Part shown: piece after piece, positions 21,033 through 49,537 of the stretch | How the letters are laid out: every line of letters begins with the position of its first letter | Position numbering within the stretch: position 1 is the first letter of the stretch | Assembly (NCBI GenBank): GCA_023512835.1 | Contig: CM042084.1 | Coordinates: 48,531,609-48,595,608, forward strand | From: Taxillus chinensis | Taxonomy: Eukaryota > Streptophyta > Magnoliopsida > Santalales > Loranthaceae | Direction of reading: 5' to 3' | DNA length: 64,000 bases | The notes under the pieces: model-generated | The model's database searches: none | The model's input: the letters and a program-made list of their open reading frames with translations, nothing else | Told to the model about the DNA's origin: nothing | Made by a program: the position numbers and the translations under genes

Positions 21033-21379
21033 TGTCATCACCGGTTTTCATCCGGGCCTGTTTGGGGTGGGCTCAAACTAAGCCAATGGTGAGAAATTTA
21101 GAGTCACCACCAACTATTTTTAGGGTACAATTGAATACCCTCTACTTTGAGTATTTCAAGGTGTAATCTGCTGTTGGATCAAGCCCAGAATTTGGATAAT
21201 GCTGATAAAGCCTTATGTAATTTGATCTGAGATCTTTTGTGTTTCTTTGATCGTTGCAGAAGATATGTTATTAATCCGGAGATACACTCATGAGAGCAAA
21301 GCTAAGGACAGGATACATAATCCTGATCCCGGACAAGAGTGAGTGTTGTCAAACACTTGGTAAATAACCAAGTCACCAA

Positions 21380-21770
21380 TACATACGGAATAAGGAACAT
21401 TTGTGCGGACTAAGGACTTAAAAGCTACGGATTACGGAATCTGTTCCTAATGCCTCAAACGGACTAAGTCAAACTAGATGCGGAGTAAGGAATCCGGGCC
21501 ACTCACTCATACGAAGTAAGCATGGCTAGTACGGAGTAAGCCATCCGGTCCTTTAAACTCATACGGAGTAAGGAACTTACATACGGAGTAAGGAACTTAC
21601 ATGCGGAATAAGGAAGTGCTGATACGGAATAAGCACTCCGACCTTCTCATTCACACGGAGTAAGGAAGCGCTGACACGGACTAAGGATTCCAGTACCAAA
21701 TAGATACGGAGTAAGCAACCACTGACACGGAGTAAGGTTCCGAGCTTCATTAGCAACGGAGTAAGGAAAA
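21380..21770 (+). repeat. CGGAGTAAG-type tandem array in the COP2 5' LTR
   Basis: About 15 copies of a core near CGGA(G/A)TAAG(G)AA at irregular spacing, including the 16-mer CGGAGTAAGGAATCCG at 21481-21496. The 3' LTR has the matching array at about 32848-33245. Confidence 0.85.
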
Positions 21771-21874
21771 TTACACCGGACCAAGAAGATGCTACTTCAA
21801 ACTACCGCATTTTAAGGTATCAGCTCGTGGTGTCCCGATGTAAGACCAACTCGTTGAGAACTTGAAGAAACTTA

Positions 21875-21880
21875 CACGTG
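21875..21880 (+). promoter_or_regulatory. CACGTG G-box (ABRE-like ACACGTGG) in the COP2 LTR
   Basis: ACACGTGGATCATCC upstream of the TATA box. The COP3-family solo LTR has the similar ACACGTGGACATCATCC at 14953. ACACGTGG matches the core recognised by ABA-responsive bZIP factors; responsiveness is not shown by sequence. Confidence 0.5.
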
Positions 21881-22068
21881 GATCATCCGGATATGTGGAC
21901 ACAACCTTAATTATATTTGGGAACCCACAAAGGCACTTATACTCTTCAAACCCAAGATCTTGAGCTCCACAAACCGCAGCAGTCAAGGCAGAGAGATTAC
22001 CGAGGAATAGTTAGTGCTGAACGCATTCCGGAACTACAAGTTCCAAGGTTGTCTCTTAGGAATGTTTG

Positions 22069-22076
22069 TATAAATA
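22069..22076 (+). promoter_or_regulatory. TATA box of the COP2 LTR
   Basis: TATAAATA within TTTGTATAAATATTC. It is conserved in the 3' LTR (about 33535) and equivalent to TATAAATA at 6823 in COP1. Confidence 0.6.
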
Positions 22077-22373
22077 TTCATACTTGTACATTTGTGTGGG
22101 TGTGCGAACGAGCCTGAATTAACCCTGTGTATGCACAAGAGCTCAAAGATATAATCTAGGCTAGTGTGTGAATCCTTTTGTAAACGAGTGTAAGAGAGTC
22201 TTGCTTTATTTTGTTGTAATTATCTCTCGATAATAAAACAAAATACTTCCACTATCTGGTTATCTTCCGCAGTGATTCTATCACTTAACTAGATAAGTGT
22301 GGTGTCTTAAGAGATTAGAAAGAGTTTCGATAAGAGCCTATTCACCCCCCTCTAGGCTCCAAGGGACCATAAG

Positions 22374-22385
22374 TGGGATCAGAGC
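22374..22385 (+). promoter_or_regulatory. COP2 primer binding site, initiator tRNA-Met type
   Basis: TGGGATCAGAGC starts four bases after the 5' LTR end. It differs at one base from TGGTATCAGAGC, the usual plant copia site complementary to initiator tRNA-Met. Confidence 0.85.
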
Positions 22386-22432
22386 AAGTCTATTTGTTCA
22401 AAAGTAGAGATCCACCTCTTTTACTCTAAGCA

Positions 22433-24220
22433 ATGGCCGAAGAAAGCGATATGCTTTATTCAACACTCGCCTTAACTCCAGGAGGTGCACAAGAGCCCAT
22501 CCCGAATTAGGCGGCGGTGAAAACGTCGACCCACCTCAACCTGCTGCCGCCGCCGCTCCTCTACCACGGAGTTCTGGTTTTACTCTCACAAAACCGCCCA
22601 AATTCACACCTGAGCTTTTCTCCCAGTGGAAAGCTCGCATGAAGATGTTTATGGTATGCCATGATCATCTCATGTGGCCATGTCTTCATCAGGAGATTCC
22701 AATTCCGATGACTATCGGAGAACATGGAGTTAGGAGGCCAAAGACGGATGCCGAACTTACCAATGATGAAAGAACCTGGCAGTGCGCTAGTGAAAAGGCT
22801 CTGGCTTATGTTACATCGTCTTTGGATTCCAAGGCTTTCACGGACGTCCAGGGCTGCACGTTAGCAAAAGGCATGCGGGATAAACCGACAATCCTCTATG
22901 GGGGAGTCGGTCCCCGGATGCAAAATGTGATATGTGCTCTCAGGCAAAATTTTGAGAGTTTCAATCACAAACCTGGCGAATCCCTTGAAAGCATCTATCG
23001 GAGATTCAGCAAGCTCATTCTAGAGCTAAAAACTGTCAATGAGCACTACACTTAGTCTCAAATCAATGACAAGTTCTTTCGATCCTTGCCATATCGTTAC
23101 TACTCCAAGTAGCTCCAGATGCAAGCCGACAAAATCGCCCGTTTATCGCCTCTTGGGGAAATATATGGAGAGCTTCGGACTCATGAGGTCGATTCGGATA
23201 CACCGACCGTGATGAGAAAATAGCTCGGAAAGAAAAAGGGGTAGCTCTCAAAGCTACGAAATGCTCCAGTAATCATCAAGAGGATGATACGGATGAGTCG
23301 AGAATTATGACTCCAGACGCGAAAAGGAAATAGCTCTTCTTGTCAAATCCTTTGAACGATTCCTTCGGAAAAGTAGAAAAGGATTCAGAAGAGGCTCCTC
23401 ATCATCCAGAAGGAAGGAACGATCGGAGTCGAGCTCCCAAGAATGCTTTAATTGTGGGAAACCCGGTCACTGGGCCAAGGAATGCAGATCCAAATCTAAG
23501 ACGGCAGAGAAAAGTGACAAGGTTACTCCTCGACGTACCACCTCAGACAACAGCAAGAACAAGAGGAAAGCGTTCGTGACAAAGTACATCAGTGGCTCGG
23601 AAGAAGAGGAGGAATCCTCGGATGATGAGCCAACTCCAAAGCCGAATGTCTGCTTCATGGCAAATACTGAGGTACCTTCTATCTCTGAGCTCATGAGTAA
23701 ATTAGAATTTCTTACTACTGTATGTGATCATGAAAAGAATGAGAGACTAATAATTACTCAAATGTACAAAGATATGGAAAGTCAGAATAAACGTCTTGAA
23801 TTTACTATTACTAGACTTGAAAAGGACATAGCTGACTTCAGAGGAAAAGAAGCTTGGTATCACGATCTAAGAGCTGAAAATCATCTGCTAAATACCAATC
23901 TTTCAGGCCTAAAAGTTATAGTAAAAAGACTTGAGAATGAACTTGAACAGGAAAGGGAAATAAATCATAAGTGGCTTAAATCCGGGGAAATAGCCTCTAC
24001 ATTTAGAACTGATCCGGATAATATTCGAGTCAAAGCTGGCCTAGGCTCTGAATCATCAACCTCCAATGCTAAAGCTACTGAGTGTCCTCCGGATTTCACT
24101 CCAAAACTAACCAACTTATATCCTGTTAGTACATTTAAATCGTTGGATGGTTTCATTTCAGGTGGCACCATAGTTTATGATTGTGGAGTTGAGGTCACAT
24201 CGCACTTCCCGAAGCAGTAG
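22433..24220 (+). pseudogene. COP2 gag: capsid-like UBN2 region, CCHC zinc knuckle and coiled-coil tail
   Basis: The start at 22433 (MAEESDML) follows the PBS closely. A copia-type gag domain (FSQWKARMKMFM..., through SLESIYRRFSKLILELK) runs to about 23050. The knuckle CFNCGKPGHWAKEC (CX2CX4HX4C) is at 23444-23485. An acidic stretch (SEEEEESSDDE) and a predicted coiled coil (DMESQNKRLEFTITRLEKDI and following, about 23770-23970) come next. Stops at about 22508, 23053 and 23110 and a frameshift near 23200 break it. A long gag with coiled coil is typical of Sireviruses. Confidence 0.88.
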
Positions 24221-24423
24221 CACCCGTAACTAATGATGAAGGGAAGGCTGCTGCAATTAAATCCAAAACTGTAGCACCCAAAAAGAAAGGAAAGGCTAAG
24301 GCTGACGCATCCAGGGCCAAGAGCGCGTCACCCAAACGCAATGGATTAGGCCACAGGGAACAGTAGGAAAGTTGAAAATCTAAGAGACCTATATCCCCTA
24401 TTTGTACTTCGCATTATAGTGTC

Positions 24424-27400
24424 TGTTCCATTTGTAGGGAAATGGGTCATTATCACTATGAATGTTGGAGTTTATCTGATAACTGGTTTTGTAATCAAAT
24501 TCGTACCAATAAAGATCAGTTTAATAAAAAGGTTTCTTCGAGCAAAACAAAATCTAAACCACAAAGGAGTGTCTCTCCCAAGAAAACCCAAATAAAAGAG
24601 GCAGCTGAAACTAACAAGTTAAAGTCAACTTGGAGAGCTAAAAGTCCTAGCAAAATCAAATCCGGAGCTGTTGACATTATCGCTTGCTCTCTAACCGCCC
24701 GAAACAAGTTTGGGCACCAAAAGTGTAACCTGTTGTCTTTCAGGAGCATCTCCGGAATGCATTGCCGGATCACTTGAAGTTAAAGATCAATCAAAGCAAG
24801 TGGATCCTCGATAGTGGATGCTCCGGACATATGACGGGTGATCGGACTCCTTGTAGAAGTTAATGAAAAACGAGGTCCATCCGTTTCATATGGTGACAAC
24901 AGCAAAGGTAAGACGTCGGGTATGGCACTTTAACTAACGACTGTGTATCAATCACTAGAGTTGCACTAGTCGAAGGTTTAAAGCATAATTTTCTAAGTGT
25001 CAGTAATTTATATGACAAAGGATTTCTTGTTTCCTTTATGTCCAACACGTACGAAGAGAAAACTTATCCGGAGATGTTAAGTTATCCGGATCAAGAGATG
25101 GGGACATATACTCCAGGTGGTCTTAAGAAATAATTCTTCGACCCTGTTTGCTTCCTCACTAAAGCTTGAGATGAAGATTGGTTATGGCACAAGCGATGCG
25201 CACATTTAAACTTTAAGACATTGTCTAAATTAGCATCACTTGATCTTGTCAACTGGTCTACCTAAACTTAAATTCTCCAGAGACATTCTCTGTCGAGAAT
25301 GCCAACTGGGCAAACAGACCAAACATAGCTTTAAGAGCAAATCAGTTAATTCAATAACTGCTCCTCTACAACTTCTTCATATGGACCTCTGTGGTCCTAT
25401 TTCTGTTCCTTCTCTGGCTGGTGCAAGATATACCCTTGTGGTTATCGATGATTTCACCAGATACACATGGGTGATGTTCCTGAAATCAAAGGATCAAACT
25501 TTTGAGCATCTTGTAGATCTTTTCAACTGGATAAGCAACTCACAAGGACGAGCATAAAGTGCATCAGGAGTGATCATGGTCTGAATTTGATTTTTCAAAA
25601 ATGAGATCATATTGTTCTGAACAGGGCATACAGCATGACTTCTCTGCGCCCAGAACTCGACAACAAAATGGGGTAGCTGAGCGCAAGAATCATACCTTAG
25701 TTGAGGCTGGTAGATCTATGTTAGCAGGGGCAACGCTTCCTCTCAGTCTATGGGCTGAAGCTGTGTCCACTGCCTGCTATGTTCAGAACAAAACTCTAAT
25801 AAATAAATCTACCATGAAAACACCCTATGAGATGTAGAGAGGACAAAAACCCTCAATTTCACATTTCAGAGCTTTTGGGTGTACGTGCTATATATTGATA
25901 AATGGCAAAGAGACCCGGAATAAATTTGAACCAAAATCTGATGATGGGATTTTTGTCTGGTACTCATTACATAGTAAGGCTTATCGGGTCTTCAATAGAA
26001 AACTTTTTAAAGTTGAAGAATCTATCCATGTGACTTTTGATGAAACTAATCTTGATTGGTCAAAAGTTGCTTCTTCAACTTCTAATGTGTAGGTCCTGGA
26101 CAGCAACATCGATTATTCGAAGTTTATGAATGTTCCTGTTACACATTCTGACCAACCATGTGGCATCAGCGAGGCACAAAGAAATTATATGGATGATGCT
26201 ACGGATGACTCAGACTCAGGACTACCATTAAGCTCCGGACATACTCCTACGGATACCCAAAATTCTGGAGCACCTTCAAGTCCGTCTGGACCAGTTAACA
26301 CTGAAAGAAACAGTGTTGAAGAACCACCTAGTTCTATCGTACCTTCTAATACGGAAACATCTAGTCCGGACGAAGCTCAACCAGCAGATACACCTGAACC
26401 ACCTAATCTGGCAGAGCTTCAAATCGTTCAAGATCATCCATCACATGCACAGAATTATAGATGGACCCGAAACCATCCCTCAGATCAAGTGATTGGTGAT
26501 CCTACTGTTGGTGTAAGAACAAGAGCAGCCACCTCCAACATGAGTCTTTACTCGTGTTTTCTATCTCAAATAGAACCAAAAGTGGTAGATGAAGCTCTTT
26601 AGGATTCGAATTGGATAGAAGCCATGCAAGAAGAGCTGAATCAATTTAAGAGAAATAATGTGTGGACTTTAGTACCAAGGCCTAAGTCTCAGCAAGTCAT
26701 TGGAGTTAAATGGGTGTTCCGGAACAAGCTTGATACGGATGGAATAGTAATTCGGAACAAAGCCAGACTGGTAGCCAAAGGATATCGTCAAAAAGAAGGA
26801 ATAGACTATGATGAGACCTTTGCTCCAGTAGCAAGACTTGACGCAATCCGAATGTTTCTGGCGTATGCTTCATATGAAAACTTCATAGTTTATCAAATGG
26901 ACGTCAAGAGCGCATTCCTGAATGGAGATCTTTAAGAGGAGGTTTACGTAGAACAACCTCCCGGTTTCATTGAACTTAAAGCAGGACATCTAGTCTATAA
27001 ACTTTGAAAGCTTTATATGGTTTGAAGCAAGCTCCAAGAGCCTGGTACGACACCGTCGTCGAATTCCTACTTGCTCACCACTTCCAAAAAGGGAAGATAG
27101 ACACCACCTTATTTCTGCGAAAAGAGAAAGGGCACACTCTAATCGTACAGATATACGTGGATGATATCATTTTCGGATCAACGAATCCGAAGCTTTGTGA
27201 AGAGTTTGCTAAGTTGATGACAGGCAAGTTTGAGATGAGCATATGGGAGAACTGTCCTCCTTCCTCGGAATAGAAGTTAAACAATTGAAGGAAGGAATCT
27301 TCATTAATCAAGCTAAGTACACTTGCGATCTTATTAAGAAGTTTGGTATGGAAGGTTCATCTCCTGTTAAAACTCCCATGCCTGTCAGTGCCAAGTTAGA

Positions 27401-28098
27401 TCCTGATGTAGACGGCATATCAGTAAATGTGACTGACTACAGAGGGATGATAGGATCCTTGCTTGTATCTTACGACAAGTCGCCCAGACATTATGTTTGC
27501 AACTTGCATCTGTGCACGATATCGGCGAATCCCAAGGAGTCACATATGCTTCATGTTAAACGGATATTAAGGTATCTCAAGGGAACGATGAATTTGGGAC
27601 TCTGGTACCCAAAGGAGTCCAACTTCACCTTATCCAGGATACTCGATGCCGACCCTCTGGATGTCGCATCGACAGGAAGAGCACAAGTGGTATGTGTCGG
27701 TTTCTTGGAAATAGATTAATTTCATGGTTCGATAAGAAGCGAATTCCGTATCAACCTCTACTGCTGAGGCGGAATATATAGCTCTTCGGGAGTTCTGTCG
27801 CACTACTCCGGATGCAAAGTCAACTTACTCGACTACGGTTTCAACATGTCATCTATTCCACTCTCTTGCTGACAACACTAGTGCAATTGCTATCAGCCAC
27901 AATCCTGTCATGCACCCTAAGACGAAGCATATTGAGGTTAGGTATCACTTCATACGCGACCATGTTCTCAAAAATCACATTTCCCCGGAACATGTTGCTA
28001 CTGAAGATCAACTGGCAGACATACTTACAAAGCCCCTACCTGATGCAAGATTCTCTGAACTACTCATCCGATTAGGTATGCTTGACTTCTCTGCATAG
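24424..28098 (+). pseudogene. COP2 pol: second knuckle, protease, integrase, reverse transcriptase, RNase H
   Basis: A CCHC-like CSICREMGHYHYEC (24424-24465) precedes the aspartic protease site WILDSGCSGHMTGD (24801-24842). Integrase follows: pre-integrase HKRCAH...C-C (25185-25310), DLCGP (first Asp, about 25387), SDHG (second Asp, about 25570), and the acidic residue in GVAERKNHTL (about 25672). [35 protein letters not shown] (about 27159-27185). RNase H: KESHMLHVKRILRYLKGT and KTKHIEVRYHFI...ADILTKPLP. The order PR-IN-RT-RH is the copia order. Many stops (for example 25555, 26600, 26933 and 27006) and frameshifts (about 27240 and 27640) leave it inactive. Confidence 0.95.
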
Positions 28099-29790
28099 TT
28101 TCACATTTAAATTACCCAACAGTATACTTACTATCAGAACATGCATTGTGCTTTTGGTGAAAGTAGAAGATACATACTAATTTTAATGCTGATCATACTT
28201 ACTGATTAACGGCTTCATGCTTCTGATATTAATATCAACTTCAAATTGGGAGGATGCTTGCGTTTCCCGACTGAAGACGTTTAAGCAAACATGATTAAAG
28301 TTTATATGATTAACCTCATTCTGGTTTCATGATCTTAATTTCCACTGATTACCACATGACAAAAGCCTATTCATTTAGATTACTCTATTAACATGTATAG
28401 TTGAAGAAATGAAATGGGTTAGCTTGGAATGCCTGGTGGATGAATACTCAATCGCAGTCTGATCAGCTTCTAAAGTATAGTTTCCTCAAAAGATAGACAG
28501 TGCTGAATTTCTATACGCCAGAAAGGTCTACCGAGAGGATTGCACAATCTACGGGGGAGAAAATGCTTTATAAATTATTCGAGTAATAGCCCCGTATATG
28601 TCTCATGACCTCTTTCCTGGCGTCTATTTGAGGGGGAGCCTTTCATTGAGAGGATCAAATGATCTATGGGGGAGCTTAAGCTTCATCTATTACCTCAGTA
28701 ATGACCCCCTAATGTCTCGGATACTCTCCCCTCTAAACCTTTACTTCCGGATCTGACTGGACATGCGGTTTTGGAACAGAATAATGGCATGCTTGGATGT
28801 ATTTTCTTTTCTTCAACCATGCATTTTAATCGGATAATCAATTGCTTGCATTTGACATGTGTCCGCTTCCTCATTTTTCACTCATGAATCCTAGTTTGAT
28901 CAAATCATATGATTTTTAATTAATCTTAGCTATGTCGTTTAGCAGGACAATTTCACTATGTTGACCTATATGAACTTGTGTATTTTTATCTGACATATGC
29001 CCTGATTTAGTAATATGATCATTCTCTTGTATGTATATGTCTATTACATTCTTTGTAATGCATAAGTTCTGTTTCTCATTAGTTCGGATTATGTCGTTCT
29101 TCACAGACTATTTTCTCTTATCCGTACTAATCCTTACCTGTTAAGCTTTTGTACTTTTAGTTCATTTTTTTTAAGCTACAGGTTCAGATTTTCTTTGCAA
29201 CCTTATCGATAAATCTAGTCCATAGTCTTGGATTTGAAGTGTTGTGGTACTTCTCTTCTCTTCGACTTATCGACAGCAAAGGAATCTACTTCTCTCTCAC
29301 CGCACTCTGTTTACAAGGACATGGTCTACTTTTCATCCGGATACTCTTCACTCGACTATCGTTGATTCCAGATGATTGTCGGTTCATTCCTCCGGACTCC
29401 TAACACTGTCAAATTGCGATACTTCATGTCTTCTTTTATATCGCAAGCTTTTGAGGAGGAATCATGATGATTCATTAAATGCATATCTCAGGATGCACAC
29501 ACTTCTCCGGAAGGCGAACAGCTGTTACCCTTATTTGGTCATGCCACCTCCACATCATCTTTTAATTCGGAGGCACATCGATATCAAGACCAATGACATC
29601 AGCCTATCAAGCGGTTCACTATTTCAATTGCCAAATTCTTAGACCCGCTGACATTTACGGACTCGGTCTTATATATTCTGGTCATTCCTGCGAAGCACGA
29701 GTATTGCTCATTTCAAATCCCAAAACCTCTCATTGCTCCTTCAATACCCAAGACCTCACCTTTCCTCTCGACCTTCAACCTTCATCTACA
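28099..29790 (+). other. COP2 spacer between pol and the 3' ORF with repeated PPT-like motifs
   Basis: No pol-like coding sequence. GGGGGAG motifs occur near 28553-28560, 28631-28639 and 28667-28675, in the same phrase arrangement as COP1 (2880-3003). The stretch 29200-29345 is conserved with COP1 just before its 3' ORF. An open frame runs from 29593 into the 3' ORF, but its first 66 codons have no counterpart I recognise. Confidence 0.65.
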
Positions 29791-32496
29791 ATGGCACCCA
29801 GAATCTCTCTTTCTGGCGTTAATCCCGGCCATCTGGTCGATTGGAGTGCTGTCTCCTACCCGCCGGACTGGTTTTTCCATCTTCGCCCTCTACTAGAAGC
29901 CTCGCATATACTCAACTTGATCTCCAATCCTGTCGATCTTCTTATAGACGACATTCTTGAGTATTACCAATGGATCCGCTATACCACCGACTCAATCATC
30001 TCCTATGTTCGCGGTGAATCCATCCTCATCACTCCCGCCGTACTCCGCGCTGCTCTTCATCTTCCCCCCGGTGAACCACAGCGCCCTGATGCTGATCCAA
30101 TGGCGGCTTCTATGGGTTACACCCTAAAAGACAAGGAATACAAGGTGAAATCCTTCCAAGGTCGCTATCGTTGTATGGCGACCATACTGAGTCGATGTTT
30201 ACTGGCTCGCACTTCTGCTCTGGACTCGGTTCCTTACGATCTTCTTCTGGCCATGTACGACGTTTTTGAAGGTCTTCCGATGGACTGGGGGAAGTTTTTG
30301 TTCCGACTGCTGCAGAATGGTCCCAAGAACCATTCTTTCGGGCGCATACTAAGCATCGTCTTCTAGCATCTTAATCCGGACCATTTCGCCCGCTATGACG
30401 CTGTTCCATTTCCTTCGGCATATTACCTTCGCTATCTTACGCCGGATGGGAACATGACAGCCTGTCATCCATCTGCAGCTCTTCGCTCCCTTCCTACCGC
30501 GGAACAACAAGGCAATTCTGTTGGTGACCCCTCTGCCAGCCATGCCCCAGAGGTCAGCTCTGCTCACCGGTCCTCCCGGATTCGGTCCGTTGCTACACCC
30601 TCCGTTTCTCAGGCTTCCCAGCACAGCGTCCGTGCCGACCCTTCCGAGGTTGCGGGGCCCTCTCAGCGCAGCGTCCCTCAAGCTGTTTCTTCAGCCCCTT
30701 CTGCTGTGGATGTCCCCACTCCCTCCACTTCCGCCATTGCTGCCGCGGTTGATACCGCTATTGCTGCCAACACTGCTGATGTCCCGGCATCTACTCCGGA
30801 AGCTCCTTTGCCTCCCCTACCTCAACCCCGAGATTATCTTGACCATCTCTCCGCCGACACCTTAACGGACCTATGGCTCCGTTTCAGCCTTGCCCACACT
30901 GCCTCCATTCTTGACACCGATCTCCGGGTGTTGTACACGCGCCATACCCAATCCCCGGAGACCATGATCATCTGGAACTTGGACCACGGCTTTCTTACGC
31001 CGGCCTCCATTCCAGATGTGCCATTCCCTACCCCCTCCAGCCCGGTCCATGCTGCACGGAGTCCTTCCCCTCCTAAGGCTGGCCCCTCTCCTCCTGCTGC
31101 CGCGATTCCCGTGGTTGACCTATCCTGGTCAAGCGGGTCAGCTGCTCCGGATGCCCCTTCTGCTGCGGATGATACTCCTGTGGACTCCTCTGCCTAGCGC
31201 ACTCCTGCTCCTATTCATGCGGGGGAGTCCTCCAAAGCTCCGGAGTTGGTCCTTGGGCATGCCTCTTTTGGCACGGTCCACTCCGACGCTGTGCTCTCTG
31301 CCCAGCTGGACCGACACGCTCAATCTCATAGCGCCCAAATATCCGCCATCGCCGCCAAGGTTGATGCACTTGGCGCCCAACTCCTCTCCGCTCTCACTGA
31401 TTCCTCCACTTCCATCGAACGGAAGATGGATCTTGTCGCCTCGTCCGTCCATTCCTTGTCTACCTCCTTCGTGGACCTAGCGCACACGATGGCTCGCCCT
31501 CCCGTTGCTTCCCAGCGATCTGCCAAACCGGGGGAGAGAGTGTCATCTGATACTTCTACTCCTCCTGCACCACAACCATCCACTCGTGCTGAGAAGCGGC
31601 CTGCCTCTTCATTGCTTCAGGGAGTTCAAATTCCCAAACGCAGCCGCTTCTCTCAGCCAAGCTCCTCGACTACAGCTCCTCCTCCATCCTCTCCACCCGC
31701 AGCTGACACCTTCCTCCCATCATACGCAGAGTGTGACCCTTCTGATGCGGATGGAAGCATGCGTAAGGCAATGAAGTCCTATGCTGCGTCTTCTGCTGAG
31801 AGAAGATGTCTCTCTGACCTGTACCCTTTCTCCCCGGCCGACATTCAGACCCTTTGTTCGGAGAGAGGACTCTTTACAACAGAAGACATTGACAACTTCT
31901 CTAGGGCTGCTAAAATGGAGATGAGGCTGTTTCCATCTCTATACAAGGATGGACACTTGTTTGAAGTTCTGCCGTGCTGGAATGAAGGCTATCTTCCAAG
32001 TGTAGATCTCATTCAGTCCTTCATCGACAGAATTGCTGAGGATAGCAAGCCATGGATAACTCTCTCAACTATCCTCATTCCGTACTGGATCATGTCGCCA
32101 CATTTCATGATGGCTGTCTTCATGATTCAGTCCAAACAAATGATTTTGATTGATTCTCATCAGATTGTGGAGCATTATGTAAGAAAGAATCAATGGGAAC
32201 CACTGTGTCTCAGGCTGCCTGAAGCTGTGAAGAAAGCTGGATTATATGAAGAGTTGGGCATCACACCCTTGAGTCCAACTGAGAAGCTAAAGGCAACATT
32301 CCGGGGCAAGAAGCAAGTGCCACAACAGCCGGATGGAGATAGCTGTGGGGCCTTTGTCTGTTACTCCATCAAGTCATTCTTAACTGTGGACAAATCTTGG
32401 AGCCAACACACCACTTATACGATGAAGCAGACAATGGAGCTTAGAGAGAAAGCAGCAACTATGATCTTCAAGTATAGTAAGCCTTATGTACCTTAA
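29791..32496 (+). pseudogene. COP2 3' ORF: plant-transposon-protein-like domain, Ser/Pro/Ala linker, Ulp1-like (C48) protease
   Basis: One frame of 901 codons plus stop, with only two internal TAG codons (residues 192 and 469); I chose the ATG in TACAATGGCACCC as start. Residues ~1-190 resemble the helical 'putative plant transposon protein' domain (YVRGESILITPAVLRAALHL; SVPYDLLLAMYDVFEGLPMDW), seen by eye only. Residues ~220-640 are low-complexity linker with one helical stretch (AQISAIAAKVDALGAQLL). Residues ~690-880 are protease-like: IPYWIMSPHFMM (His771), ILIDSHQ (Asp788), PQQPDGDSCGAF (Gln846, Cys852). His-Asp spacing of 17 and Gln six before Cys are as in yeast Ulp1 and human SENPs. 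Asp-Cys spacing (64) is longer. No membrane segment is visible, so it does not look like an env-like ORF. Such proteases process SUMO-like proteins; the role here is unknown. Confidence 0.8.
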
Positions 32497-32628
32497 CGAA
32501 AATCTTGTATAAAGGCTGAATTGTATTCTGTTGCTGATGAATGAAATTGGTTATGATGCATATTCTGTATGTTATCTTTTTGCACTGCTTACCAGATCAG
32601 ATTACAAAGGGTTTGGGCATATCCATAA
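32497..32628 (+). other. COP2 3' UTR
   Basis: 132 bases from the ORF stop to the polypurine tract. COP1 retains the first half and lost the rest by deletion. Confidence 0.7.
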
Positions 32629-32639
32629 TTGGGGGAGAT
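32629..32639 (+). promoter_or_regulatory. COP2 polypurine tract
   Basis: TTGGGGGAGAT directly before the 3' LTR. It would prime plus-strand DNA synthesis. It matches the GGGGGAG motifs repeated upstream in the spacer. Confidence 0.85.
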
Positions 32640-33837
32640 TGTTGGATCAAGCCCAGAATTTGGATAATGCTGATAAAGCCTTATGTAATTTGATCTGAGA
32701 TCTTTTGTGTTTCTTTGATCGTTGCAGAAGATATGTTATTAATCCGGAGATACACTCGTGAGAGCAAAGCTAAGGACAGGATACATAATCCTGATCCGGA
32801 CAAGAGTGAGTGTCGTCAAACACTTGGTAAATAACCAAGTCACCAATACATACGGAATAAGGAACATTCGTGCGGACTAAGGACTTAAAAGCTACGGATT
32901 ACGGAATCTGTTCCTAATGCCTCAAACGGACTAAGTCAAACTAGATGCGGAGTAAGGAATCCGGGCCACTTACTCATACGAAGTAAGGATGGCTAGTACG
33001 GAGTAAGCCATCCGGTCCTTTAAACTCATACGGAGTAAGGAACTTACATACGGAGTAAGAAACTTACATGCGGAATAAGGAAGTGCTGATACGGAATAAG
33101 CACTCCGACCTTCTCATTCACACGGAGTAAGGAAGCGCTGACACGGACTAAGGATTCCAGTACCAAATAGATACGGAGTAAGCAACCACTAACACGGAGT
33201 AAGGTTCCGAGCTTTATTAGCAACGGAGTAAGGAAAATTACACCGGACCAAGAAGATGCTACTTTAAACTACCGCATTTTAAGGTATCAGCTCGTGGTGT
33301 CCCGATGTAAGACAAACTTTTGAGAACCTGAAGAATCTTACACGTGGATCATCCGGATATGTGGACACAACCTTAATTATACTTGGGAACTCACAAAGGC
33401 ACTTATACTCTTCAAACCCAAGATCTTGAGCTCCACAAACCGCAGCAGTCAAGGCAGAGAGATTACCGAGGAATAGTTAGTGCTGAACGTATTCTGGAAC
33501 TACAAGTTCCAAGGTTGTCTCTTAGGAATGTTTGTATAAATATTCATACTTGTACATTTGTGTGGGTGTGCAAACGAGCCTGAATTAACCCTGTGTATGC
33601 ACAAGAGCTCAAAGATATAATCTAGGCTAGTGTGTGAATCCTTTTGTAAACAGAGTGTAAGAGAGTCTTGCTTCTATTTTGTTGTAATTGTCTCTTGATA
33701 ATAAAACAAAATACTTCCACTATCTGGTTATCTTCCGCAGTGATTCTATCACTTAACTAGATAAATGTGGTGTCTTAAGAGATTAGAAAGAGTTTCAATA
33801 AGAGCCTATTCACCCCCCTCTAGGCTCCAAGGGACCA
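32640..33837 (+). mobile_element. COP2 3' LTR (1198 bp)
   Basis: TGTTGGATCAAG to GGGACCA. After it come three extra bases (TTA, 33838-33840) and then TCTAC (33841-33845), which pairs with TCTGC (21167-21171) as an imperfect TSD. The following GTTATCCGAGAAGGG continues the interrupted gypsy LTR, as shown by the uninterrupted versions at 17468 and 56317. Confidence 0.95.
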
Positions 33838-35394
33838 TTATCTACGTTATCCGAGAAGGGTTCATGTAGGGAAGGATTAACACCCTTACAACGCCCTTTC
33901 GGTATCTATTTTCGGAGGAGGAGGTTTCTATTTATTTTCACTGTTGTAAGGATTAACACCCTTACAACACCCTAGAAAGTCTATGCTTTTTATTTAGCTA
34001 AGTTATTTGTTAAAGTTACGGTTAAAATTGATTTATCATAAAGTTCTAAAGGGAATCCTAAAAGCTTTGTTTTGTTTTTTTGTGTTTGAAGTGGAAAATG
34101 AAATCCTAAGGTTTTTTTGTTTTGTTTTGGTTTTTTGTTTTTTTGAAAATTAAAGTCCTAAAAATTGAAATAATTTTTAGTTTTATGGTTGGAAAATATT
34201 TTTTTTGTTTTTTTTTTTTTGAAAACATTTTTTTTGAAAGAATTGAACCTAATCACAAGTTACTTTTTAAAAATGCATATTTGAGTCTTCTTTGGCTTTT
34301 GACTATAGCTAAATGCACACACATATCAAAATAAATGTCAAGTGTGTAATTGTGACATCCACAAATAATATAAATATAAAAATAAAGCTACTCTCTTTTT
34401 TATTCTTTTTTTCTTTCTTCTTTTCATTTTCATGCCTCTCTTTGCTCTTTTTTTTTTTTTGCTTTTTTTACTATACTTTACATATTGCAACTTACAACAT
34501 ACAACATATACACATAAACCAACAACAAAAAAAATACAAGGAAAATACAACATATACCAATAACATAAAAAAACAGAAAAAACACTAAATATTACATCAA
34601 GTATAAAAATAAATAAACTAAAAAGGTAATAAATCAACAAATACAAAGTAACTGAACCAACTTTGGGGCTTCAACTACGGTTGCCCGTTTGAACTATCCT
34701 GTCTGCACCGAAAGTCGCCTGCTGGAACACAAAGTCACCAAATTGCCAAATTCAAGTAGTGCAAATTATAAAAATCAGTTGGGGTTTAATTTGGAGGCTG
34801 CAGGTGGTATGTTGGAGTTGATGAGAAATTGATGAAAAGGATTTAAACCTGATAGAGGGAGGGAGGATAAACAATGAGAGAGATTTTTATTTTGGGTGAG
34901 AGAACCCGTACGAGAGAGGAGTGAGAGGAGTTTTTTTTTTTGTTTTTTTTGTTTTTGGAAAGGGAACTCACATGGAGAGAGAAAGAATATGGGAAGGAGA
35001 GTTTGTTTGTGTTTTTGATTTTTTTGATTTTGATCTTGGGAAAAGGAGAAAGTTGGGCAAAAATCTGGGTGTTTTGTGCAAAGGGAAAGAGCTTGGAGGT
35101 AATTTTTGGGGGTGAAGACCCTGAGCGTGAGGGGAAGGACCCCCTTTTTAATGCCTTTGGACGTAGCCTCATTATTGCTGCATTCATTGATGTATTATTC
35201 ATGCCAACATTTTTTTTTCCCGGATTCCATCTGATGTCGGGTGGACTGACGACCTATGATTGCCCTTTTGGTTTCGTATGAGCACATGTGACCGAAAGGC
35301 ATTGAAAAACACCTTCCGTGAAGAAACAGTGAGTGAGCCCATGGATAGGCCAATCAGCGAAGGTCAAAGGTTGGTAGGGTCAAAGGTTAGTGGA

Positions 35395-35830
35395 GGCTTG
35401 GATCCGGATCAATGGAAGGCTATTCTGGATGATTGGAAGGCTCAGATCCTTACTCTGTGTCAATGGAAGCTTAGTCCGAATCAATGGAAGGCTCGGATCC
35501 TTACTCCGTGTTAGTGGAAGCTTAGTTCGGATCAATGGAAAGTTCAGATCCTTACTCCATATTAGTGGAAACTTAGTCCGGATCAATAGAAGGCTCGGAT
35601 CCTTACTCCGTATTAGTGGAAGCTTAGTCTGGATCAATGGAAGGCTCGGAACCTTACTCCGTGTCAGTGGAAGCTTAGTCCGGATCAATGAAGCCTTGAA
35701 TCCTTACTCTGTGTCAGTGGTAGTTTAGTCCGGATTAATGGAAGGCTCGGATCCTTACTCCGTGTTAGTGGAAGCTTAGTCCGGATCAATGAAGGTCGGA
35801 TTCTTACTACATATCAGTGGGAACTTAGTT
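35395..35830. repeat. About 51-bp tandem array in the gypsy LTR
   Basis: About eight degenerate copies of a unit containing GGATCAATGGAAGGCTCGG, ATCCTTACTCCGT and GTCAGTGGAAGCTTAGTCC. Same array type as 57896-58340 in the GYP1 5' LTR. Reverse-complemented, the unit contains ACGGAGTAAGGATCCGAGC. Confidence 0.88.
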
Positions 35831-38029: not shown

Positions 38030-38391
38030 TGGTCAAATCCATGCTAAGCCCAGTGATACGGAATAAGCCTAGATTCGGAGGTCAAACCTAGTCAATGATT
38101 CGGAATAAGCTCGTTGATGCGGAATAACCCCAGATTCAGAGGTCAAACTTGGTCAATGATACAGAATAAGCCCACTAATCTGGAATAAGCCCAGATATGG
38201 AGGTCAAACTTGGTCAATGATTCAGAATAAGCCCGCTGATGCTGAATACGCCTACTGATCCGGAATAAGCCCAGATCTGGAGGTCAAACTTGGTCAATGA
38301 TCCGAAATAAGCCCACTGATGCAGAAAAAGCCCACTGATCCGGAATAAACCCAGATTCCGAGGTCAAACTTGGTCAATGATGCGGAATAAG
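38030..38391. repeat. GGAATAAGCCC-type tandem array, interrupted by COP3
   Basis: Repeats of GATCCGGAATAAGCCCAGAT and GGAGGTCAAACTTGGTCAAT. The array continues on the other side of COP3 at 49543-49735, which confirms COP3 inserted inside it. The TSD ATAAG comes from the repeat itself. Confidence 0.88.
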
Positions 38392-39778
38392 TGATATTCT
38401 CAGGTTCCAAGCGTGCTCGTCTTGGTTTTTTTGTATGTATACAGAGAGGGGGGTGAATCTGTATACTGTAAAACTATTCCTTTAGTTTTAAAGAGTAGGA
38501 CATTTTATAGAAGTTTCTTTATCATATGTGGTCCTCGTTTGGATGGCCTTTTAGTGTCTCATGCAATATCAGTTACAAGCAAGCATGTGTGAGAGAGAAA
38601 AGACAGAGACACACAATATATGTGGTTCGATCAATGTGATCTACTCGACAGTGGTGAGGGTGTACCTACACCGAGTCCAATCCACTATTATCTTTCAATA
38701 CAGTAGGGTCTAGCCCTTGTTACAATTGGATCAACTTTCTCTTCTATTCAATGCAAAAACAAAAATAGTATTGCTCCAGAATTTGCTCACTGTAAGAATC
38801 TATCTAACGCAATCTGCTCCTGCATTGCTGACTGTTTGCAATGCTCAACCTTCTACCACTCCTATACCAGACTCAAGAAATGTTCACTAAATGTGTGAGA
38901 AAGAAAGAAAGATTAACTCACTATTATCTTTCTCTTTCAATCTTCCTCTTTCTATATCTCTTCTATGAACTACTCTACGTCGCCTTTTGTATCTGTGCAG
39001 ATACATTTCTTGTCTTCTTAGAATATTATCGACGCATACTCTAAGTCAGGCATATTCTTTGCCTTTATAGGCCGGCACCAGTCAGAAACCCTTTGTCTAG
39101 GGTTTAGCATGTTTCTCCCTTTGATCTTCACCATTGAAACATGTTAAACCACTTGCGGATGATGTCCATAGTTTACCAGTACTTAACGTACTTAAAACTA
39201 CTGTCTGGGTAACAACTTACGGAAATGGTAAACTTCAGCGCGTTTTGCTCCTTCGTAGCGCACTCCGTTCCTTTGTCTTGCTACAACCTCGAGGATATTG
39301 CCTCATAGCATTTTTGCGAGTCTACGAGTCTACATCTTCGACTCTTTGAGTCTGAGTCTTCGAGCCACGGGCATTGATCTTCCAACTCTTTTGCGCTCTG
39401 GCTTTGAAGCTAGGTCAGAACTAGTGCTTCATTGACATCGCATTCTACAAGCCTTAGAGCTCTACGAGTCTTCGAGCGAGTCAATAACAGCTTCATTCTG
39501 TCTTGGCTGAGTAGCTGTTCATAGGTCTTCGCAGCAGGTTCTTCAATTTACGACCCTGTGAGCTTCGACCCTACAAGCTATGACTCTACAAGTTTGTGCT
39601 TCAAGTTTACGAGACACAGCTCTTTACTTGTTTGCTCCTTGGGTCTGTGAAGCTACGACCCTGTGGTCCTTCGAGGCTTCGACCCTGTGGTGCTTCGATC
39701 CCATGGTCTGATGGTCTACGACCTTCGAGTCAGGGCGTACATAGGTTGACTCCCTCTATGAGCTCACTCTAAGAGATC

Positions 39779-42413: not shown

Positions 42414-42424
42414 TCTCCCCCTTT
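42414..42424 (-). promoter_or_regulatory. COP3 polypurine tract
   Basis: On the minus strand AAAGGGGGAGA directly before the 3' LTR (one T between). A second PPT-like CTAGGGGGAGC lies just upstream (42492-42502). Confidence 0.8.
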
Positions 42425-42591
42425 GGAATTGTTGGCAACACACGGAATGCGCAAACCTTCGAACCACTCCCCTTGAACTTCTCCACTGTGTGCTCCCCCT
42501 AGAAACAATACTCTCTTTTCCGCCTCCTTTGCCAACCAATTACAAAGACAGAGGAGGGAACCCAACGGATGTCTTATGCGTGAGGAGGTGG

Positions 42592-45500
42592 CTATGCAGA
42601 TAGCCCACTTCGGTGTCTATCAAACAGCTCAATGGATAGAGGTTTGGTGAGGATATCTGCCGTTTGTTCTTGTGTAGGTACATACACCAATTGCACATTT
42701 CCCTCTTCCACTTGTTCCTTGATGTAGTGGTAATGATAGTCAATATGCTTGGTCTTCGAATATTGGACAAGATTCCTACTAATATTGACAGCACTCTAGT
42801 TGTCACACCAGATGTTCACAATTAACTCAGCACTGACCCCCATGTCTAACAATTGCGTATGCATCCATACCACTTGTGTACATGCTGCATGTGCAGCCAT
42901 ATACTCTGCTTCTGCTGTGCTACAAGCAACACTGTTCTGTTTGCGGCTCAACCATGCAACACATTTAGAGCCCAAATAAAAACTGCAGGCACTGGTAGAG
43001 CGTCTGTCATCAATGTTTTCAGCCCAGTCTGCATCAGTGTAAGCCTGTAACTCAATGAAATCCTTAGAGGGATACCACAATCCCATCTCTAGTGTACCAT
43101 TTAGGTATCTAAGGATCCTCTTGACTACCAGCAAGTGAGACTCCTTTGGATCTACTTGATATCTACTTGCCTGACACACAGCTTGCATCAGATCAGGTCT
43201 AGAGGTCGTGATGTATAAGAGGCTTCCAATCATACCTCAATACTTTTTTTGATTTATACTTGTGCCTTCCTGATCCTTATGAAGTTTGCAGCCTGTAGCC
43301 ATTGGGGTTCCAACAAGATTGCTATCTTCCATACCATACTTCTTCAGCAATTCCTTGGCATACTTGTGCTATGATATGAATATGCCTTCAGCAGTTTGCC
43401 TAATCTGCAGTCCCAAGAAGTATGTCAGTTCTCCTATGAGAGACATTTCAAATTCATCACTCATTCTCTTGGCAAATTCTTCACATAATCCTGAGTGACT
43501 TCCTCCGAATATAATGTCATCTACATAGACTATGGTAGCCAGCTGACCTTTGTCTGAATTCAGTATATATAAGTTATGATCCACTGTTCCTCTACTAAAA
43601 TTCATTCTTTTTAAATACCCATCCAGTCGGCTATACCATGCTCTAGGAGCTTGTTTCAGGCCATACAAGGCTTTTTTCAGTTTACAAACATGTGTCTCAT
43701 CATTAGCAATCTGCACTCCATCTGGTTGTTCAATATACACTTCTTCTTTTAGCAACCCATTTAGAAAGGCAAACTTCACATCCATTTGATAAACCTTGAA
43801 TTTCTTATGTGCTACTAATACAAGAAACATTCTGATAGTTTCTAGCGTTGCTACTAGTGCAAAAGTCTCATCAACGCCTATCCCCTCAATCTGAGAATAT
43901 CCCTTGCATACCAGTTGTGCCTTGTTCTTGACAATCTTGCCATCTTCATTCAGCTTATTCCTGAATACCCATTTAGTTCCGATAACATTCTTGTTCTTTG
44001 GTCTAGGAACGAGCTCCCATGTCTTATTCTTTTCAATTTGATCCAGCTCATCATTCATTGATGTGATCCAAGCTTCATCTTCTACTGCTTCTCCAACTAT
44101 TTTAGGCTCTATTTGAGAGAGCAATGTAGTAGCTCTTGCAAATTTCCTCCTGGTTGTTACACCTGCTTGGGGATCACCAAGGATCTGATCCTTGTCATGC
44201 ACACTGGACCATGTCCTCCTGGTCTTTTTAGTAGAATCTACTCCAGGATTGGACTCTTCCTTCTCTTCTTCCTCAGACTTCTCTGAGTCCGTGTCCTCCT
44301 CTTTCTCTTCTTTTTCATGCTCAGACTTGTCTTTCTCCTGAGGTTCTACTACTTCAAAATCCAGATTCTCATCCTCAGTTACATCTTTCTTCTAGTTTTC
44401 ATCCACTTTAACTTCACTTGAAGTTATTACTTTTCCAAGTCTTGGAAGAAAAACTCTATATCCCTTTGTCTGATATGAGTATCCAACAAATGTTCCTTCC
44501 TCAGATCTAGCATGAAACTTTCCTCTTCCTTGCTCCTTTATCTTCACGAAGCAAGGGCTTCCAAATATCCTGAAGTATTTGGCTATTGACTTCTTCCCAC
44601 ACCATAATTCATAGGGTGTGCAATCTGTTCTTGGTCTTAATGTCACTCTGTTCAGTAAGTGTACTGCTGTTCTGGTTGTCTTTGTCCAAAACCTCATATA
44701 TAGATTAGCTTCCAGCAGTAGAGTTCTAACCATTTCAGTGACAGCCCTATTCTTGCTTTCAACAACCGCATTTTGTTGTGGAGTTCTAGCTGTTGATAGT
44801 TGATGCTTAATCCCATATATATTCATATATCTCTCAAAAGCTTCGTTTGTAAACTCAATACCCTAATCAGATCTTAGAATCTTAATCTTTTGACCACACT
44901 CATTTTCAGCCATTCTTCTATACTTCTTGAAGCAGTCCAGAGCTTCTGTCTTGTGCTTTAAATACATGATGCAGGTCCTCCTGGTGAAATCATCCACAAA
45001 TAGAATGAAGTACCTTTCACCATTGAGTCCCTTGTTTCTCATTGGTCCACACAGGTCTGTATACACAATATCCAGAGCTGCTTTTGAATATACTCCTTCA
45101 CATGGTAGTGAAATCTGGCTTGTTTTCCATGTAAGCATGCTGAGCAGACATGCTCTATGTCCCTTTTCATATCTGGAATATCTCTGATAGCCTTGCAATT
45201 CACAAGTCTTAAGATGTCCCAATCTTCTGTGCTAGAGTTCATTCTCTTCAATCTTTGTTATATGATAGGTATGGGTCTTGTTTTCATCAATCACATACAG
45301 ATCCCCATCTATCCTTCTTCCAGCTACTACTATGTTGCCATTTTCTCTTTTCACCTGACAACCAGTTTTTGTAAAGGTCACTTTATGACCTGCATCACAC
45401 AGTTGACTAACGAATGCTAGATTGTATTTCAATCCTTCAACATACAGAACATCCTTCAGTTTATTGTTTCCCCATTTGGCTGATGCTAGCCCCTTGATCT

Positions 45501-45609
45501 TCAGAGAGCTATCATTGCCAAATCTTACTTTGCCATATTTATCTTTGTTCACATCTGACAGTGTCTTTAGGTCACCAGTCATGTGAAGCAGCCACTATCA
45601 AGGATCCAC
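42592..45609 (-). pseudogene. COP3 pol: protease, integrase, reverse transcriptase, RNase H
   Basis: The frame from 45582 to the stop at 42592 is continuous, with six internal stops (about 45232, 44863, 44392, 43369, 43234 and 42796) and no frameshift. Protease WILDSGC is just upstream (about 45609-45589), separated by a small frameshift from HMTGD. Integrase: YTDLCGP, ILRSD and VVESKNRAV (V replaces the usual A/G before the acidic residue). An acidic spacer (about 44390-44220) follows. [38 protein letters not shown]. RNase H: SRPDLMQAV, YTDADWAENIDDRRSTSA, KTKHIDYHYHYI and ADILTKPL. Much better preserved than COP2 pol, but still inactive. Confidence 0.95.
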
Positions 45610-45841
45610 TGTCTGTCCTTGATGTCTGCTTTCAATGCAATCTCAGCATTATGAGCCACTTCTTTCTCCTTGGCCATATACACTTGTTTTACTTTAGACT
45701 TGAAGTGCTCTTCCTATTTTACTTTAGACTTGAAGCACTCCCCCTGAGGCTTGGGCTTCATAGTCTTCTGAGATGCTTTCTCCTTCTTCTTTTGAACTTT
45801 CACAATTTTCTTTATCTTATTCTGCTCAGGAATAAGTACTC

Positions 45842-48127: not shown

Positions 48128-48138
48128 GCTCGATACCA
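48128..48138 (-). promoter_or_regulatory. COP3 primer binding site, initiator tRNA-Met type
   Basis: On the minus strand TGGTATCGAGC, two bases from the LTR end. It is the plant copia site TGGTATCAGAGC with one A lost. Confidence 0.8.
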
Positions 48139-48140
48139 AT

Positions 48141-49537
48141 TAATATTCCCAGGTTCCAAGTGTGCTCATCTTGGTATTTGTGTATGTATATAGAGAGGGG
48201 GGTGCATCTGTATACTTTAAAACTATTCCTTTAGTTTTAAAGAGTAGGATATTTTAGAGAAGTTTCTTTATCAGATGTTGTCCTCGTTTGGATAGTCTTT
48301 TAGTGTCTCATATAATATCAGTCACAAGCAAGCATCTATAAGAGAAAAAAGATAGAGACACACAATATACGTGGTTCGATCAATGTGATGTACTCTACGG
48401 TGGTGAGGGTGTACCTACACCGAGTCCAATCCACTATTCTCTTTTAATACAGCAGGGTCTAGCCATTGTTACAATTGGATCAATTTTCTCTTCTATTCAA
48501 TGCAAATACAAAAATAGTATTGCTCCAGAATTTACTCACTGTAAGAATTTGTCTAATGCAATTTGCTCCTGCGTTGCTGACCGTTTGTAATGCTCAACCT
48601 TCAACCACTCCTATACCAGACTCACGATCTGTTCACTGAATGTATGAGAAAGAAAGATAGATTAACTCACTATTATCTTTCTCTTTCAATCTTCCTCTCT
48701 CTCTATTTCTCTTCTATGAACTACTCTGCGTCGCCTTTTGTATCTGTGCAGATACATTTCTTGTCTTCTTAGAATATTATCGGCACATACTCTAAGTCAG
48801 GAATATTTCTTGCTTTTATAGGTCGGCACCAGTCAGAAACCCTTCGTCTAGGGTTTAGCATGTTTCTCCCTTTGATTTTCACCATTGAAACATGTTAAAC
48901 CACTTGTGGATGATGTCCACGCGTTTTGCTCCTTCGTAGCATGCTCCGTTCCTTTGTCTAGCTACAGCCTCGAAGATATTGCTTCGTAACATTTCTGCGA
49001 GTCTACGAGTCTACATCTTCGACTCTTTGAGTCTGAGTCTTTGAGCCATGGGCATTGATCTTCCAACTCTTCTGCTCTCTGGCTTCGAAGCTACGTCAGA
49101 ACTAGTGCTTCACTGACATCGCATTCTACGAGCCTTAGAGGTCTACGAGTCTTCGAGTGAGTCAGTAATAGCTTCATTCTGTCTTGGCTGATTAGCTGTT
49201 CATAGGTCTTCGCAGCAGGTTCTTCAAGCTACGACCCTGTGAGCTTCGACCCTGCATGCTATAACTCTACGAGTCTTTGCTTCGAGTTTACGAGACATAG
49301 CTCTTTACCTGTCTGCTCCTTGGGTCTGTGAAGCTACGACCCTGTGGTCCTTCGAGGCTTCAACCCTGTGGTGCTTCGACCCACATAGGTAGACTCCCAC
49401 TACGAGCTCACTCTAAGAGATCACTCTACGAAGTTTTCCAACCAAGTATAGATCTTCGACCCAGACCTTCGACCCTGCGAATTCCGCTTCCTACATCATG
49501 TTGATAATAATGACAACACAACCTCGCGGGAACAACA
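48141..49537 (-). mobile_element. COP3 5' LTR (1397 bp)
   Basis: Plus-strand ends TAATATTCCC (48141; the expected TG is mutated to TA) and GGGAACAACA (49537), followed by TSD ATAAG (49538-49542). It is the same sequence as the 3' LTR apart from a ~75-bp deletion and point differences, and has no nested insertion. TATAAAA on the minus strand is at 48814-48820. U3 has CTTCGAC/CTACGAG short repeats (48990-49480). Confidence 0.95.

Follow-up and report, generated by a model that had tools for sequence, protein, structure and literature searches.

A predicted Ulp1/SENP-type cysteine protease encoded at the envelope-like position of a Sirevirus-like copia element in Taxillus chinensis

The stretch analysed here comprises 64,000 nucleotides of the Taxillus chinensis genome (assembly GCA_023512835.1, contig CM042084.1, positions 48,531,609 to 48,595,608 of the forward strand) and is referred to below as the window. 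It contains a 12.7-kb Sirevirus-like copia element bounded by long terminal repeats (LTRs) at 21172-33837 on the plus strand, which hosts an open reading frame (ORF) in the sense orientation at 29791-32496 (+), between the copia RNase H and the polypurine tract (PPT) and 3' LTR. The ORF consists of 901 codons plus TAA and is interrupted by TAG at codons 192 (30364-30366) and 469 (31195-31197); the original prediction, which had described a 901-codon frame with two stops at this place, is borne out in these coordinates. The ORF starts 1.7 kb 3' of pol, and its Met is kept in three of the four rows of an alignment of N-terminal domains (A4), from which one further locus, L035, was left out for its stops.

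Three parts, all on the plus strand, can be distinguished in the ORF. The N-terminal domain (29791-30363) resembles Transposase_32 (PF20167), scoring below the cut-off of 45 in the window (20.2 bits) and in the related loci L014 (20.5), L031 (20.9) and L018 (25.2); it is 26-31% identical to the other groups of relatives described below, and a search of the PDB with a profile of this domain gave no useful match. The middle part (30367-31194), with a TAG on either side, is rich in Ser, Pro and Ala. The C-terminal open piece (31198-32493; 432 amino acids, with TAA at 32494) includes a Peptidase_C48-like domain at 31708-32493. A bipartite basic stretch, KR-12-KRSR, lies 5' of the protease in the window copy and in L013, is missing in a second copy in the window (copy 2), and could be a nuclear signal. 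The guanine-cytosine (GC) content is 0.55-0.60 in the middle of the ORF (window 30172-31671) versus 0.33-0.49 elsewhere in the element, and the observed/expected ratio of CpG is near 0.9 around the 5' side of the ORF.

Within the C-terminal open piece, to which the following residue numbers refer, the candidate catalytic residues are H302 (32101-32103), D319 (32152-32154), Q377 (32326-32328) and C383 (32344-32346), spanning 32101-32346 (+). The motifs from which a Ulp1/SENP-like protease had been proposed, IPYWIMSPHFMM, ILIDSHQ and QQPDGDSCGAF, are all present in the translation, and His and Asp are indeed 17 residues apart, with Gln six before Cys. When the 262-residue C-terminal part was shuffled 200,000 times, 13 of the shuffled sequences showed the joint His-Asp-Gln-Cys spacing. 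Pfam assigned the window copy to Peptidase_C48 at 21.3-21.8 bits, with a cut-off of 20.7. Three results weigh against this assignment: the single-sequence score is barely over the cut-off, a phmmer search with the C-terminal piece reached SENP1 only at E 0.49, behind an unrelated chain (0.039), and a PDB search with a two-copy profile (A2, window ORF and copy 2) returned no protease. The score of a single copy is weak, and the identification is carried by the relatives, namely copy 2, the diverged locus L003 and a profile that joins the groups.

Among these relatives, Peptidase_C48 was matched above the cut-off in copy 2 (21.9 bits), in L018 of group 4 (37.5 bits) and in L003 of group 2 (61.8 bits); the scan that scored these two loci left out L005 and, for its stops, L013. 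L003 aligned to the C-terminal piece over 264 amino acids (E 1e-17 in a search of 226 kb), and the window ORF matched group 4 at E 3e-16. A profile of four rows from three diverged groups (A3; window ORF, copy 2, L003 and L018) had SENP1 as its best match in the PDB (1.1e-7), with yeast Ulp1 at 2.7e-6. The 28 sequences at E <=1 were mostly SENP1, SENP2, SENP3, SENP5, Ulp1, Ulp2 and chlamydial deubiquitinases (Dub1/Dub2); a ferritin at 0.012 is an evident chance match. In the A3-SENP1 alignment, the His, the Asp, the Gln pair and the Cys-Gly fall on the catalytic residues of SENP1, and H, D, Q and C are among the 21 invariant columns of A3, the rest of which shows about 25-28% identity. The same His-Asp-Gln-Cys spacing occurs in L002, L004, L005, L006, L008 and L013 (L008 and L013 with stops), and in group 3 (L007) the His-Asp and Gln-Cys spacing is kept, with one Gln, in a broken frame. 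Compared with yeast Ulp1 and human SENP1 (PDB entries 1euv and 2iyc), the His-Asp and Gln-Cys pairs are in register, but the alignment covers only the catalytic core, and 64 residues separate Asp from Cys in the ORF versus 53 in SENP1 by the numbering used in the original prediction. A chance motif is ruled out by the shuffles and by the A3 matches in the PDB. The latter also rule out, as far as sequence evidence goes, an unrelated protein family, since the profile search found SENP1 and Ulp1 instead. We conclude that the C-terminal part of the ORF is very probably a Peptidase_C48 (Ulp1/SENP) domain of clan CE.

The element that surrounds the ORF has the domain order of a copia retrotransposon, in broken frames and on the plus strand throughout. 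Its 5' LTR (21172-22369; 1,198 bp, TGTTGG...GGGACCA), recognized as a direct repeat from its ends and alignment, is followed at 22370-22385 by the intervening bases TAAGTGG and a sequence, GATCAGAGC, that resembles a primer-binding site (PBS). Downstream lie a gag piece (22408-23052; Retrotran_gag_2, 35.6 bits), a gag continuation with a CCHC zinc knuckle (23297-24217) and, in the translation of pol, the motif DSGCSGHMTG (24810-24839), which we take to be the active site of the aspartic protease. Two integrase pieces follow (25234-25837); the Pfam scan covered the first, 25234-25554, and gave rve at 28.4 bits (cut-off 32.6), the second lying outside the scan. The reverse transcriptase (RT) is split into pieces at 26603-27716 (RVT_2, 112.9 bits for 26603-26932). 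RNase H (27736-28095), presumed from its ADILTKPL motif, gave no Pfam match when this piece was scanned alone, and is 61% identical to the same region of copy 2 (E 8e-34). The linker between pol and the ORF holds three GGGGGAG motifs (28553, 28632 and 28668; 28553-28674), of which the one at 28632 is a full AGGGGGAG octamer. Behind the ORF, the terminal PPT TGGGGGAG with the attachment dinucleotide AT (32630-32639) directly precedes the 3' LTR (32640-33837), which carries CACCCCCC about 20 bp before its end. Over 1,197 aligned positions the two LTRs are separated by 22 substitutions (K = 0.0186), which corresponds to about 0.7 million years at an assumed rate of 1.3e-8 per site and year. A target-site duplication was looked for at the ends of the element and none was seen (flanks TCTGC and TTATC).

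Sireviruses are described with the PBS TATCAGAGC, a terminal PPT AGGGGGAG 10 bp before the 3' LTR, followed by AT and TG, and several further PPT copies, most of them after the ENV gene (PMC2829016). In the window element, the PBS agrees with the Sirevirus PBS at eight of nine positions, and the 5' LTR junction reads CA / TAAGTGG / GATCAGAGC versus CA / ATTGG / TATCAGAGC in Sireviruses, so that the intervening bases differ. The 3' junction is TGGGGGAG-AT-TG, with a PPT that matches seven of the eight bases of the octamer, ten bases 5' of the 3' LTR, and contains a long inverted repeat, the 110 bases there folding into a hairpin at -47.2 kcal/mol; the run of C close to the end of the LTR is likewise on the Sirevirus feature list. 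Besides the three GGGGGAG motifs in the linker 5' of the ORF, two lie inside the ORF and one in gag, and none was found between the ORF and the terminal PPT. By these features the element is a Sirevirus-like (SIRE-type) copia, the lineage name being taken from these motifs rather than from a tree against named elements.

The ORF is not peculiar to this insertion. Copy 2, at 977-7157 (+) of the window, repeats the layout of the main element from RT through RNase H, linker and ORF (3666-5725) to the LTR; its matches start within pol, with DNA identities of 66-81% by piece. Its ORF is 70% identical over 430 residues, with the same His-Asp-Gln-Cys and with the N-terminal domain not matched. Searching the genome, the one plant genome on which all comparisons here are based, with the 432-residue C-terminal piece gave at least 97 near-full-length copies, window included, spread over nine large contigs (97 places scored from 11,382 first-look candidates, a lower bound); the other 96 are 88-94% identical and cover at least residues 5-432. 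No stop interrupts the match in 43 of the 97, and three of the 43 belong to open frames with 880 or more residues, which shows that there are long unbroken copies. Using the RT end (27234-27716) as a second query, we compared these places with 150 RT places among the matches listed. At least 12 of the 97 copies, window included, are preceded by an RT of the same orientation at a start-to-start distance of 3.9-4.7 kb, which is 3.92-3.99 kb in 11 of the 12. One control with the strand flipped and five with shifted positions gave 0, 0, 1, 0, 0 and 0. For the remaining 85 copies the matches listed include no RT, which is uninformative either way. Insertion of a foreign gene into one copy, a possibility raised with the original prediction, is ruled out by the 97 scored copies and by the co-linear RT of at least 12 of them. 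The claim that a Ulp1/SENP-like domain with its catalytic residues lies inside a copia element thus holds in many copies, by Pfam, by the profile matches in the PDB and by the genome search.

More distant relatives fall into further groups. A Pfam search of the genome returned eight loci (L001-L008), one of which, L001, had no match to the window ORF. Group 2 comprises L002, L003, L004, L006 and L008, group 3 is L007, and group 4 is L005 with L018. These diverged groups are about 25-30% identical, yet the N-terminal domain and the protease are both kept, the former (Transposase_32-like, below cut-off) being common to all four groups. The sequence GGGGGAG-AT-TGTTGG lies 3' of the ORF in L003, L004, L007 and L013, with the exact AGGGGGAG octamer in L003 and L007 and TGGGGGAG-AT-TG in L013; L006 and L008 have a PPT/LTR start with one mismatch 3' of the ORF, and none was found in the stretches searched of L001 (exact form only), L002 and L005. 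With up to two mismatches, the junction was matched 15 times over 276,264 bases, a count that includes overlapping loci, where about 2 are reckoned for random sequence. The window itself has a third Sirevirus-type 3' end with a C48 remnant at 58867-59354 (+): the tail of a group-2 protease ORF (58867-58956; 57% over 30 amino acids, E 4e-8), then AGGGGGAG-AT-TGTTGG from 59345.

Evidence of copia genes upstream varies among these loci. In group 2, the ORF of L006 together with L036 is preceded by gag remnants, integrase and RT, with no match to RNase H; L003 has no copia pol within 5 kb upstream of its ORF. L007 has a gypsy element directly upstream of the ORF, as judged by eye. L014 agrees with the window element in its order of gag, integrase, RT and RNase H; L012 contains a 5' part, whereas L016 consists of LTR-like sequence alone. 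Copia pieces also occur in L010 and L015, with no ORF match in the examined stretch behind pol (L010 is partly N-masked). The group-2 ORFs of L003 and L004 (C2:27.77 Mb and 27.79 Mb) and their LTR starts are opposed and 18.7 kb apart, like an inverted duplication. Group 4 (L018:4781-7066, L017:1-1028 and L005) is repeated, without copia pol or Sirevirus-type PPT; L017 resembles an internally deleted copy, and the presence of L018 and L017 among 12 arbitrarily placed 10-kb stretches indicates that the group may be abundant.

Group 4 bears on the question of whether the protein also belongs to another mobile family and has been swapped between elements, a doubtful reading that is compatible with the others considered below. 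Related ORFs or remnants occur in L018, L005 and L017 with no PPT of Sirevirus type, the surroundings of L018 and L005 gave no match to copia pol, and L029 had no more than a weak integrase match, which lies in a gypsy element. Moreover, the RTs of groups 1 (that of the window) and 2 are 76% identical versus about 27-30% for their ORFs, which fits either exchange or fast evolution. However, groups 1, 2 and 3 lie directly before a Sirevirus-type PPT/LTR start, and no clear LTR pair was found around group 4 (terminal inverted repeats were outside the search).

Selection on the gene was estimated as omega (dN/dS, the ratio of nonsynonymous to synonymous change) between copies by the Nei-Gojobori method, for few pairs and with stop codons omitted. 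Omega is 0.078 in the N-terminal domain (189 codons), 0.331 in the middle part, 0.191, 0.231 and 0.236 in the C-terminal piece (0.269 in its first 170 codons) and 0.162 and 0.206 in the protease part; the group-2 protease gave 0.214 and 0.133. For comparison, RT gave 0.044 and 0.086, another RT piece 0.415, RNase H 0.351, with a few codons possibly from a minus-strand copia of the window, and gag 0.45. All values are raised because of decay after insertion. By these ratios, selection on the gene was about as strong as on pol during the active period of the family. The original prediction had the element capture a SUMO-protease-like gene or share one with Mutator-like elements; that it carries such a domain stands, but capture by this element seems unlikely, since diverged groups in the same genome share both the N-terminal domain and the protease. 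Given also the position of the ORF, which is that of the Sirevirus ENV-like gene, this looks like an old gene of the lineage.

That ENV-like gene, also called eORF-3'F in SIRE/Maximus elements, is likewise a sense ORF between pol and the 3' LTR of a copia element, behind a long linker (PMC2829016, PMC3414828, PMC6317226, PMC7264820), with a GGGGGAG-AT-TG junction and inverted repeat, poly-C near the LTR end and an ORF that is highly variable between families. It differs in that these papers, in the text available, name transmembrane and coiled-coil features and no enzyme, whereas the ORF described here has a C48 protease and no convincing transmembrane segment. A 2019 survey reported that 74% of SIRE elements have the 3' ORF, which falls into 19 groups that hardly resemble one another, and its main text, in the parts available, does not name Ulp1 (PMC6317226). 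The function of ENV-like genes in plant copia elements is graded in these sources as unproven, controversial or speculative.

Ulp1 domains are already known in MULE, CACTA and Ginger elements. The KIU and VANC-Ulp1 proteins of Vandal Mutator-like elements (MULEs) and the Ulp1 MULEs of melon, rice and grapevine are further cases of a plant mobile element that keeps a Ulp1-type domain (PMC13317346); those are DNA transposons and this is an LTR retrotransposon, a comparison made by description rather than by sequence. The gene here is surrounded by copia pol, PBS, PPT and LTRs, which does not agree with the Mutator class, although no search was aimed at MULE ends. CACTA elements of Chenopodium have Peptidase_C48 as an extra domain in ORF2, but these too are DNA transposons and the domain is a fragment found in some elements (PMC8978399). 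Ginger1 transposases with Ulp1 or OTU join such a protease to an integrase-type mobile element, but they belong to animal cut-and-paste DNA transposons and the protease is fused to the transposase, unlike a separate 3' ORF (PMC2836005). One paper lists a Ulp1 gene in a repeat-rich amplicon that also has copia elements and, in its available part, draws no link (PMC5240378), and another, in its available part, does not tie Ulp1 to a mobile element (PMC10438386). A review in which both Sireviruses and Ulp1 occur likewise does not connect them in its available part. In the open-access literature, as far as its available parts go, we came across no description of a copia element with a C48 protease; the supplement of PMC6317226, with CDD hits of the eORFs, might name C48 for some SIRE eORFs.

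These results suggest that the gene long called 'envelope-like' encodes a protease, at least here. The explanation that we favour, though only slightly when its proposed action in trans is included, is that in this lineage the gene encodes a fast-evolving, selected ULP-type protease. The 3' sense ORF at the ENV-like position would specify a three-part, probably soluble protein in which a linker of low complexity joins a conserved N-terminal domain to a clan-CE (Ulp1/SENP-type) cysteine protease at the C-terminus, its catalytic residues intact. The gene was kept by selection over rounds of transposition in at least two diverged branches. Beyond the position, domain, residues, recurrence and selection that are observed, we infer that the protease may remove SUMO and counteract silencing: it would work in trans inside plant cells as an isopeptidase specific for SUMO or a ubiquitin-like protein, with the N-terminal domain to direct it, and would free either proteins of the element, such as Gag particles and integrase, or silencing proteins of the host of their modifiers, allowing the element to escape repression. 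Such a trans-acting isopeptidase, protecting or activating element proteins or stripping host silencing factors, is an arguable idea that falls somewhat short of an even chance; it is proposed by analogy with the VANC proteins of Vandal MULEs, which counter silencing by undoing methylation of their own elements and some of which have a Ulp1 domain whose role is unexplained (PMC13317346).

Several points count against this explanation. Its two stops mean that the window copy cannot make the full protein, and in 54 of the 97 scored copies the C-terminal 432 amino acids are interrupted by one or more stops. Within group 2, L003 and L004 are 99% and L006 and L008 98% identical, leaving three independent loci. 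The protein may extend beyond Sireviruses, since it also occurs in group 4 (L018, L005), where the stretches searched contain no Sirevirus-type PPT. Searches for relatives in other genomes yielded none from the protein database (of 8,000, 473 and 2,866 candidates, none scored under the limits applied), viral contigs or plasmids, collections that possibly contain few or no plants. As to the choice of substrate, clan-CE enzymes also cleave ubiquitin, NEDD8 or viral polyproteins.

The last of these activities leads to a different role, in which the protease serves the element itself and cuts Gag, Pol or its own N-terminal part in particle maturation. The clan-CE proteases of adenovirus and African swine fever virus are maturation enzymes, as viral members of the clan often are, and both the selection on the protease part and the recurrence of the ORF with RT upstream would be expected of such a role. 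We nevertheless consider it unlikely: copia pol has its own aspartic protease, whose DSG motif is present in the window element, the closest solved relatives are SUMO/ubiquitin-type peptidases, and the distance of the ORF from pol and its retained Met are unlike a polyprotein.

Still less probable is a true envelope-like protein in which the likeness to a protease is a relic or a binding module, for example one that binds SUMO without cleavage. It would accord with the ENV-like gene that Sireviruses have at the same position (PMC2829016, PMC3414828). In a simple scan, the best 19-residue Kyte-Doolittle means of the three ORF pieces were 1.15, 1.06 and 1.66, the usual membrane cut being 1.6. 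The stretch at 1.66 is thus just over the cut, which speaks for an envelope, but the same stretch is the active-site strand and the other two pieces stay below. For lack of a convincing membrane span, an envelope role is unlikely for this version of the ORF; the catalytic residues are, in addition, invariant while the rest drops to about 25-28% identity, and the protease part is under purifying selection. Functionless hitch-hiking of a captured host gene or MULE fragment, to which the many broken copies, the raised GC content at 30.2-31.7 kb and the capture of Ulp1 domains by MULEs (PMC13317346) would lend themselves, is disfavoured and in our judgement very improbable, because it does not predict the omega of 0.08-0.24 seen in every pair for the N-terminal domain, C-terminal piece and protease (0.27-0.33 in the low-complexity parts), and the N-terminal domain and protease are both present in diverged groups.

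Extending the favoured explanation, a selected ULP-type protease, beyond this lineage, we tentatively propose, at rather less than even odds, that in flowering plants at large the fast-evolving ENV-like proteins of Sireviruses are not envelopes and instead form a single family of ULP-type cysteine proteases, whose N-terminal domain serves for targeting; they would look unrelated by BLAST because most residues but the catalytic ones drift. If this were true for Sireviruses generally, the elements would have an accessory gene directed against the host, coding for a SUMO/ubiquitin-like isopeptidase of their own. A catalytic triad offers a direct and cheap test of ENV-like gene function and would tie retrotransposon success to SUMO or ubiquitin biology, in parallel to the Ulp1-bearing MULEs.

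Other repeats and genes were observed in the window and the loci. A copia element on the minus strand (window 42421-46990, -) has an RT 61% identical to that of the main element and a AGGGGGAGAT-TGTTG junction, with no match to the protease ORF. Direct repeats of 91-94% identity at 38389-39538 and 48138-49219, about 9.7 kb apart, are possibly the LTRs of this element. Arrays of a 51-bp repeat lie 22 kb apart at 35385-35815 and 57852-58365. Finally, a Geminivirus Rep-like open frame (L031:1038-1961, +; Gemini_AL1, 87 bits; Gemini_AL1_M, 76 bits) is located about 3 kb upstream of a group-2 protease ORF.

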